Shown: positions 27,748-30,090 of the stretch, one piece after another | Numbering within the stretch: the stretch's first letter is position 1 | How the letters are laid out: every line of letters starts with the position of its first letter | Assembly: GCA_902796915.1 (NCBI GenBank) | Contig: CADBQS010000006.1 | Coordinates: 1 to 34,681 of the forward strand | From: an uncultured Ruminococcus sp. | GTDB lineage: Bacteria > Bacillota > Clostridia > Oscillospirales > Acutalibacteraceae | DNA length: 34,681 nt | Direction: 5' to 3' | Notes under the pieces: model-generated | The model's database searches: none | What the model was told of the DNA's origin: nothing | The model's input: the letters and a program-made list of their open reading frames with translations, nothing else | Program-made: the position numbers and the translations under genes

Positions 27748-28175
27748 TTATTTTTCAAGATATTTTACAACTTTTTTACCTATCTTTGCTCCAATCCATG
27801 CACCGCTACCTATACCCAGCGAAGCACCACCTAAATTACCAACTAATGCACCATAACCAACACCAACCACAGCACCATTTTCTCCATCCAACGCACCGCC
27901 GATGGCCCCACCGGCAAGCCCAGCACCAACAGCACATGCTGGCATTGTAAAGCTAGAAATTAAGCTTCCGACTGATAATGCACCAACTGTACCACCAATA
28001 AGTTTACCCACCGTCACATTATTTAATCCACCAACTGCTTCTTTCGTTTCCTCTTCTGTAACATCTACTCCTTTGCTAGCAAACAATTTTTTGCTTCCTC
28101 TACTGTTTCTTTGTTTACTAATTCTCCAACAAATTCCTGATCCTGCATTAAATCCTCAAATTTTTTGTCTAACAT
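27748..28175 (-). CDS. Nif11-leader-like glycine-zipper peptide precursor, frame broken
   Basis: Read across one frame break, this gives about 142 aa. From ATG 28175 (SD AGGAAAGGG) the frame reads MLDKKFEDLMQDQEF and goes on to VNKETVEEAK; it then stops at 28065. The -1 frame goes on from the A6 run (28092-28087) as LFASKGVDVTEEETKEAVGG and a glycine-rich core of about 92 aa full of GxxxG spacing (GAGLAGGAIGGALDGENG, IGKKVVKYLEK). The joined N-terminal part has the layout of Nif11-type leaders: an acidic helix, then T-E-E, ending in Gly-Gly. A bacteriocin-like or RiPP precursor is the best guess; a plain glycine-zipper membrane protein is the alternative. The run A-AAA-AAT could allow -1 slippage, or one A is missing. 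No transporter or modification enzyme is nearby. Confidence 0.65.
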
Positions 28176-28244: not shown

Positions 28245-28270
28245 ATTATACCCCCACAAAATTTTGTCAA
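28245..28270 (-). promoter_or_regulatory. Promoter-like site with G5 tract and short spacer
   Basis: On the minus strand, perfect TTGACA (28270-28265) and perfect TATAAT (28250-28245) are only 14 bp apart; the spacer is nine bases followed by five G. It lies about 70 bp before the peptide start. Three more G would give a 17-bp spacer. Compare 29508-29536, which has the same plan with eight G. Confidence 0.65.
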
Positions 28271-28330
28271 TACTTTTTCCTAAAAAACTTAAATTATATT
28301 ATTTTTCACTTCTAAAAAAGATAATTTTAC

Positions 28331-28370
28331 AAAATAAAAATTACATTATCCTTTATAGTAGATAATGTAA
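28331..28370 (-). terminator. Terminator of the LRR gene
   Basis: On the minus strand TTACATTATC (28370-28361) and GATAATGTAA (28350-28341) form a 10-bp stem with a 10-nt loop, followed by TTTTTATTTT. Confidence 0.75.
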
Positions 28371-28388
28371 CAAATCTAATATTAACAT

Positions 28389-29402
28389 TTATAAATATTC
28401 GCTTACTTCGTATTCTGCCTTCCCAAATTTAAAAAACATTTTGTATCTATAGTTTTTATGTGTATTTTCTGGGACCAAAACTTTTACTTTTTTATCCTTA
28501 AATTTCCTACTAATATAAAAAGCTGTTTCTCCAATTTTAGGTGGTATATCATTTAAAAATCTTATTTCATCCAAAAAATTACAATATTCAAAAGCATCCC
28601 AACCAATATAATCTATATTATACGGAAAAACTATATTGTTTATATTATAACATCTAGAAAAAGCCTTGTCTCCTATACGCAAAAGAGAATTAGGAAAACC
28701 CACATTACTCAATGAATTGCAATTATAAAACCCTTTCTCCCCTATTGTCTCTATATTGCTACCTAATTGCACATTTTCTAAATTAACACAGTTTTGAAAC
28801 GTACCTACTTTAATTTCAGATATTCCATTAGGTATACTTATATTTTTTAAACTATAGCAATTATAGAATGAATATTGCCCCAGATTTATAAGACTATCGT
28901 ACAAATCTACATGCGTTAAGCTGTAACAATCCTCAAAACAATAATCAGATATTCCTTTCAGTCCTTCCGATAAATTAATTTCTTTTAATTTATAGCAACC
29001 ATAAAATGCACAATTCCCAATAAATTCAACACTAGATGGTAACTTCACTCTTTCTAATTTATCGCATTCAAAAAAGCTGTAATTACCTATTACTTTAATA
29101 TTACACTTTATATCTATACTTCTTAAATTACGACTTTCCTTAAATGCATTAGGTAAAATTCCTTTTATATAATATTCTATATCATCAAATAGCACTGATT
29201 CAGGAATTATTATCTCTCCATTATAACCATCTGATTTAAATGTAACATAAGCCTTGCTTTCTTCATCGTTAAAAACTACATAGCATATCCCATCTTTCTC
29301 AAAATTTTTTATTATTTTCACATCGTTTTCAACAGCATATGTTTTGTTAAAACATAATAAAGTCAATATCATAAAAAACATTTTAAATATAAATTTTTTC
29401 AA
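28389..29402 (-). CDS. Secreted BspA-type leucine-rich repeat protein
   Basis: 337 aa. An N-terminal signal peptide (MKKFIFKMFFMILTLLCF, ending near YAVE) leads into about nine repeats of roughly 23 residues of the LRR_5/BspA type, for example IKVIGNYSFFECDKLERVKL and INLGQYSFYNCYSLKNISI. Such proteins in gut and oral bacteria are surface or secreted binding proteins. There is no cell-wall anchor or dockerin. The start is TTG 29402 with AGGAGGG six bases upstream, the only well-placed SD. It is flanked by the two G-tract promoters but has no clear promoter of its own. The last repeat is followed by a short C-terminal strand, so it seems complete. Confidence 0.85.
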   Translation of the reverse strand: MKKFIFKMFFMILTLLCFNKTYAVENDVKIIKNFEKDGICYVVFNDEESKAYVTFKSDGYNGEIIIPESVLFDDIEYYIKGILPNAFKESRNLRSIDIKCNIKVIGNYSFFECDKLERVKLPSSVEFIGNCAFYGCYKLKEINLSEGLKGISDYCFEDCYSLTHVDLYDSLINLGQYSFYNCYSLKNISIPNGISEIKVGTFQNCVNLENVQLGSNIETIGEKGFYNCNSLSNVGFPNSLLRIGDKAFSRCYNINNIVFPYNIDYIGWDAFEYCNFLDEIRFLNDIPPKIGETAFYISRKFKDKKVKVLVPENTHKNYRYKMFFKFGKAEYEVSEYL

Positions 29403-29507
29403 TTTATTCCCTCCTCGTCAATTATTTTCATTATATTCAATAAATTACAATAATGATTACAGTATGTAAAATATTTATAAAAAACACAAAAAAACTTCAA
29501 AAAACTA

Positions 29508-29536
29508 TTGACATTTTTTCGAGGGGGGGGTATAAT
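29508..29536 (+). promoter_or_regulatory. Consensus promoter with G8 tract in the spacer
   Basis: Perfect TTGACA (29508-29513) and perfect TATAAT (29531-29536) are exactly 17 bp apart. The last eight spacer bases (29523-29530) are all G, in DNA that is otherwise strongly A/T. A change in G number would change spacer length, as in the phase-variable porA promoter of Neisseria. Confidence 0.8.
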
Positions 29537-29548
29537 GTACTTGTACAT
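29535..29548. promoter_or_regulatory. 14-bp palindrome at the predicted transcription start
   Basis: ATGTACTTGTACAT is a perfect dyad (6-bp arms, TT centre) that begins in the -10 element and covers the expected +1. It may be an operator or an RNA 5' hairpin; no regulator can be assigned. Confidence 0.45.
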
Positions 29549-29604
29549 AAAAACTACAAACAACAAAATATGTACAAAATTCATATTTTATAGGAGGAGA
29601 TTTT

Positions 29605-30090
29605 ATGATCGCAGCATTTACAAAAGGAGCAGACAAAATTTTGAAAGAAGCAAAAATTTACAAACACTCAAAGATGGGTTCAAACAATTTTCATTACTCT
29701 ACACAAAAAGAATTTGACGATGAAAAACCAATAGAATGGAAGTCAAATGGTAACCACAGTGTGGGATACTATAAAGCGCTCGAAAACTTGTACTGTTATC
29801 GTACTAGCTATAGGGGAAATGTTTTTATTGAGCATTATGTTGACCCCGATGATGCACATTCTAAAAAACTTACCGGCGAACATCTAAATGCTTACAAAGA
29901 GTACTCAGAAAAGAATGATAGACCAGAGGAAAGGTATTTGTTACTTTCTAAGGCCGAACTAGCTAAGGTTGAAGACGCTACATCTGCCGATGTATTCAAA
30001 GACAATTTAAAAATTGCGAAAATTGTTAATAAGCCTGCGTTTATGGGTGAATATTATCACGTTGATTACTATCCAAAATCTGAAAAATAA
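29605..30090 (+). CDS. Unknown 161-aa soluble protein under a G-tract promoter
   Basis: No family is recognised. The protein is hydrophilic and Lys/Glu/Tyr-rich, with no signal peptide or membrane helix. Notable stretches are an N-terminal FTKGADKILKEAKIYKH, an aromatic region SVGYYKALENLYCYRTSYRG, the acidic EHYVDPDDAHSKKLTGEH, and a C-terminal YYHVDYYPKSEK. The single Cys is in LYCYR. The start ATG has a very strong SD (AGGAGG, seven bases), so once transcribed it should be well translated. It is monocistronic, with the G8 promoter about 70 bp upstream and a hairpin terminator after it. It might act in immunity to the peptide nearby or as an independent effector; nothing in the sequence decides. 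Confidence 0.7.
   Translation: MIAAFTKGADKILKEAKIYKHSKMGSNNFHYSTQKEFDDEKPIEWKSNGNHSVGYYKALENLYCYRTSYRGNVFIEHYVDPDDAHSKKLTGEHLNAYKEYSEKNDRPEERYLLLSKAELAKVEDATSADVFKDNLKIAKIVNKPAFMGEYYHVDYYPKSEK

Follow-up and report, generated by a model that had tools for sequence, protein, structure and literature searches.

Two promoters within the window, by which we mean the whole stretch of 34,681 nucleotides analysed here (contig C6, 30% GC, of the 1.40-Mb, 145-contig host genome G000), carry perfect −35 and −10 boxes with a G homopolymer in the spacer between them, and the same architecture recurs in other contigs of G000 and in its relatives; what an earlier note had observed at two sites is confirmed and widened to a promoter class at the level of the order. 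We consider it quite probable that this class, both window sites included, is a family of spacer-slippage promoters of the Neisseria porA type, in which the site at 29508 would stand at its ON length and the site at 28245 would be OFF and probably a decayed copy. The evidence is the architecture of the promoters, its recurrence, the scatter of tract length among paralogous promoters, and the class of genes that lie downstream.

On the + strand, TTGACA, TTTTTTCGA, G8 and TATAAT follow one another over 29508-29536, and the ATG of a 161-aa ORF lies 68 nt further 3′; on the − strand, TTGACA, AAATTTTGT, G5 and TATAAT do so over 28270-28245. The features, read from the sequence and, for the peptide gene, from comparison with its paralogues, are:

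29508..29513 (+): −35 box TTGACA of the promoter of the 161-aa gene
29523..29530 (+): G8 tract, which with TTTTTTCGA makes a 17-bp spacer
29531..29536 (+): −10 box TATAAT of the same promoter
29592..29599 (+): good ribosome binding site, AGGAGGAG
29605..30090 (+): orphan protein of 161 aa whose N-terminus is not signal-like, putatively driven by the G8 promoter
28265..28270 (−): −35 box TTGACA of the promoter of a Nif11-like gene
28251..28255 (−): G5 tract, which with AAATTTTGT makes a 14-bp spacer
28245..28250 (−): −10 box TATAAT of the same promoter
28087..28092 (−): A6 run (T6 on the + strand) at which the frame breaks relative to the paralogues on C76 and C102
27748..28175 (−): frameshifted precursor gene with a Nif11-like leader and a glycine-rich core

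Boxes and tracts are exact at both sites, as the earlier note had read them, and at both the homopolymer lies inside the spacer between canonical boxes, as in porA-type promoters. A pattern fitting both promoters matches twice in the window and not once in 100 dinucleotide-preserving shuffles. Directly 5′ of the −35 box at 29508 stands TTCAAAAAACTA, which is common to the site on C64 and nearly so at the site on C76. A palindrome, TGTACttGTACA (29536-29547, +), lies immediately 3′ of the −10 box of the G8 promoter and might be an operator; it is absent from the remaining G-tract promoter sites of G000.

A search for further such promoters, which the earlier note had proposed as a check, returned six TTGACA...GGGG...TATAAT sites in the whole of G000, against none for a reversed control pattern, and additional sites in relatives. 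The six sites of G000 are:

C6− (28245): 14-bp spacer
C76: 15-bp spacer
C102: 16-bp spacer
C6+ (29508): 17-bp spacer
C64: 17-bp spacer
C69: 18-bp spacer, tract G4AG4, gene cut off by the contig end

The non-G part of the spacer comprises 8-14 bases across the sites, and the nine bases seen in the window therefore do not represent a fixed plan. The full TTGACA is present in all five occurrences of GGGGGTATAAT in G000 that have TTG at promoter distance, and only three G runs of at least 8 exist in the 1.40 Mb, two of them within these promoters. Two promoter subtypes can be recognized: C6+, C64 and C76 have an A-rich stretch and AACTATTGACA in common; C6−, C102 and C69 have TATTGACAAAATTTT in common, the C69 version with CATATTGACA. 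C6− and C102 are paralogous promoter–gene units, alike over TATTGACAAAATTTT...TATAATATTTATG; the spacer is 14 bp in the former and 16 bp in the latter. Because they are alike up to TATAATATTTATG while their spacers are unequal, the non-G part of the promoter has been copied while the G part differs. A continuation of contig C69 into C90 was considered and rejected: the two ends overlap by 7 bases only, and then diverge.

The genes downstream of the G-tract promoters in G000 are of two kinds. The targets on C64 and C6+ are orphans of 218 and 161 aa with no recognizable domains and no signal-like start; for the 161-aa protein we found no family match, one weak and uninformative match in 398 genomes of the family, and no usable fold in a structure prediction (pLDDT 36). 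The minus-strand gene of the window belongs to the second kind. The earlier note had called its product a glycine-zipper peptide; the start is at 28175 rather than 28086, 5′ of a 1-nt frameshift at the A6 run relative to the paralogues, and the gene encodes a leader (MLDKKFEDLMQDQEFVGELVNKETVEEAK) followed by the core in a different frame. The glycine-rich core stands, but the product is a Nif11-like leader precursor rather than just a glycine-zipper peptide: it has a double-glycine-type leader end, a variable core and a paralogous family. A leader profile search of G000 gave 18 matches (about 17 genes), in which a leader with a GG-like ending precedes a core that is often glycine-rich; the leader ends in GG in most members, and in VGGG, VGAG and, across the frameshift, VGG in those with G-tract promoters. 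The closest precursor subtype has four members, three with G-tract promoters (C102, C76 and C6−) and one (C83) with an ordinary 17-bp spacer.

This family resembles the Nif11-derived peptide (N11P, TIGR03798) and NHLM systems (PMC2887384) in its conserved leader ending in GG, its diverse core and its large number of paralogues, as well as in the presence of an NHLM-type exporter in the genome. It differs from N11P in falling under the TIGR03798 cut-off: the G-tract members have no match to that profile, and other paralogues of G000 score 11.8-20.2 bits against a curated cut-off of 32.3. The exporter is a pair of HlyD and C39-ABC (peptidase-ABC) genes (L134, G000:C86, 894-3396; TIGR03794, E 1.3e-24; TIGR03796, E 2.7e-224; both matches partial and below the curated cut-offs), and it likely exports the leader-peptide family. 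A scan of genome contigs for the peptide family returned one distant locus only, in a sheep-rumen Oscillospiraceae MAG, which by this search is the nearest named relative; about eight related leader-type precursors stand there in tandem (L054, 2545-7000), with no G-tract promoter in the upstream stretches inspected.

The frameshift bears directly on the site at 28245. It is probable that this site is the dead promoter of a pseudogene and that only 29508, C102, C76 and C64 matter, a reading that is compatible with a slippage family: the spacer is 14 bp with only G5, and the gene is broken at A6 where its paralogues are open. Against this, neither box at 28245 has lost its perfect sequence, and the core can still be read in an open frame, which suggests that any inactivation was recent; moreover, the A6/A7 slip might itself be reversible, and the A6 run at 28087-28092 looks like either a pseudogene mark or a second slippage site. 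As three more G plus an intact reading frame would be needed, a decayed copy in the OFF state is a likelier reading of 28245 than an active switch; the addition of three G would not rescue the full protein, because the downstream gene is frameshifted. Given that short tracts slip rarely, the G8 sites are the best switch candidates in G000. A live switch at 28245 is thus weakly indicated, whereas phase variation at 29508 is likely.

Our scans of relatives covered 398 genomes of the family, 394 of the order and 397 of a second family within it (sets that partly overlap), and reversed control patterns returned no site in any of the three. G runs of at least seven touching TATAAT recur across the scanned relatives; three species of the genus g256 have 7, 8 and 4 sites, mostly with the core TTGACAA(A/G)(A/G)TGC(C)Gn, with G6-G11 tracts and with spacers of 11-18 bp. 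A scan of viral contigs gave 6 sites. We pooled 44 distinct sites of G7 or longer from all fetched loci, including two G11 sites on viral contigs (L126 and L127); the G7-or-longer requirement leaves out G5/G6 matches of the CsoR operator type (L068 and L112).

The spacers of the pooled sites are spread over 14-21 bp, and only 8 of the 44 are 17 bp long, compared with 39 of the 53 ordinary non-G perfect promoters of G000 with spacers of 14-20 bp (Fisher P = 5e-8; P = 7e-8 with non-G promoters from 398 kb of G642 added); these pooled values overstate independence, because the sites are partly paralogous. Within G000 alone and within g256 alone the deficit of 17-bp spacers is suggestive only (P = 0.06 in each case). 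A signal-like hydrophobic N-terminus was called, with a crude predictor and on partly paralogous sites, in 33 of 40 readable downstream genes, as against 35 of 119 long background ORFs at these loci (P = 6e-9). To judge from sequence, the targets in relatives comprise, among others, lipoproteins, dockerin-like and BspA-type leucine-rich repeat proteins and members of a paralogous family that begins MKKIFALALAAVMTAGM. The 161-aa product of the window, unlike most of these, has no signal peptide, which counts against the proposed switch. In two species of one genus (L096 and L099; G635 and G648), G9 promoters with 19-bp spacers have no clear ORF within about 660 nt downstream.

Tract length varies among paralogous promoters and between species, the two levels at which it was compared. 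The 195-bp upstream flanks of L103 and L105 in G642 are 94.9% identical, and their spacers are 15 bp (G9) and 18 bp (C plus G11); L108 and L125 in G803 have spacers of 16 and 17 bp, differing by one G; and L117 and L124 in G889 have spacers of 13 and 16 bp, differing by three G, upstream of proteins that are 56% identical. All such lengths come from draft assemblies, where homopolymers may be off by one. The paralogues L098 and L101 both have 14 bp; the sole pair of orthologues, L056 and L057 (86% identical, from two congeneric species), has G9 in both; and when a genus was searched for orthologous promoters of unequal tract length, only two species were found, their tracts being equal. Slippage, with tracts now and then equal by coincidence, would give such a pattern among the paralogues and species compared.

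We infer that slippage is the cause of this scatter and that switching is reversible and acts on transcription. In the proposed mechanism, the promoters would be of the sigma-A type, with the G homopolymer in the 3′ part of the −35/−10 spacer; slipped-strand replication would add or remove G and so change tract length; and the change would take the spacer off its length of about 17 bp or restore it, altering transcription as in Neisseria porA. In G000 the promoter family would drive Nif11-like leader peptide precursors and the two orphan proteins, and in relatives mostly secreted or surface proteins; 29508 (G8, 17 bp) would be the ON length for the 161-aa gene, and 28245 (G5, 14 bp) would be OFF. 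Phase variation is likely for the promoter class at the level of the order. The porA-type switching suggested in the earlier note gains partial support from the further promoters, their mostly secreted or precursor targets and the scatter of spacers around 17 bp, but its extension to a live switch at 28245 is weak.

The G run could instead be a fixed regulatory element, an operator or a DNA-shape feature for a common regulator, with spacer differences tolerated or set by that regulator; we regard this as unlikely. CsoR-type operators are plain at the GGGGG-TATAAT sites of some relatives, at L068 5′ of a CsoR-like gene (TACCATCTGGGGGTATA) and at L112, where a transporter gene is preceded by ATACCCC-TGGGGGGTAT. 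However, the mirrored half-sites of CsoR/RcnR operators (TACCC...GGGTA) are not found at the window sites, where no C-rich half precedes the G run; the targets of the G-tract promoters are unrelated to metals; tracts of G4-G15 with spacers of 11-21 bp are too loose for a single operator; and tract length is not the same in duplicated promoters. Chance or mutational bias, by which two unrelated promoters happen to have G runs, is very improbable and disfavoured: perfect boxes alone are common (72 TTGACA/TATAAT pairs at 10-22 bp in G000), but the empty shuffles and reversed control, the concentration of long G runs in these promoters and their recurrence beside secreted genes in relatives all speak against it.

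The best-known cases of slippage in promoter spacers come from mucosal pathogens, Neisseria among them. In the open-licence literature we found no description of multi-locus G-tract spacer promoters in the apparent Clostridia order. If slippage does operate on such a many-locus set, which stands before genes for leader-type peptide precursors and for secreted, dockerin and leucine-rich repeat proteins, cell-to-cell variation in surface and peptide output could be tested directly from existing metagenome reads. More tentatively, and with less confidence than for the slippage family itself, it is conceivable that throughout the order each cell selects the surface proteins and the leader-type peptides that it makes, the latter perhaps bacteriocins or signals, through independent G-tract slippage in a shared, copied promoter module.

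In porA of Neisseria meningitidis, the closest known system compared, a poly-G tract likewise lies between the −35 and −10 boxes, and where it takes the spacing below its 17-nt optimum, transcription drops or is abrogated (PMC7864442, discussing van der Ende 1995); the gonococcal porA tracts are (T)8-11 C (G)6-8 (PMC5320596), a layout of T run, C and G run that 29508 resembles (T6-CGA-G8). Unlike porA, the promoters described here belong to a low-GC genome of another lineage, occur at several loci per genome with a common promoter module, and include peptide precursors among their targets, and their switching is a prediction. Neisseria fetA, whose poly-C operates between −10 and −35 (PMC5320596), and nadA (PMC2791445) are alike in that a repeat, placed between the core promoter elements or upstream of them, alters spacing and expression level, and differ in the repeat, in its position (nadA) and in lineage; selection brought out no switching of the 5A/6A tract in the nspA promoter of Neisseria (PMC6389960). 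The Bifidobacterium breve pilus (PMC9187656) offers G-tract slippage for surface structures in a gut commensal; more G tracts in promoter spacers are mentioned there without detail, and the characterized tracts, unlike those described here, switch frame within genes and belong to Actinobacteria. The third G run of at least 8 in G000 is a G12 close to the start of a 282-aa ORF (L075, G000:C7, 245-1093, −; tract at C7:1029-1040, near codons 19-22); the ORF is open at G12, and the tract looks like a frame-switching tract.
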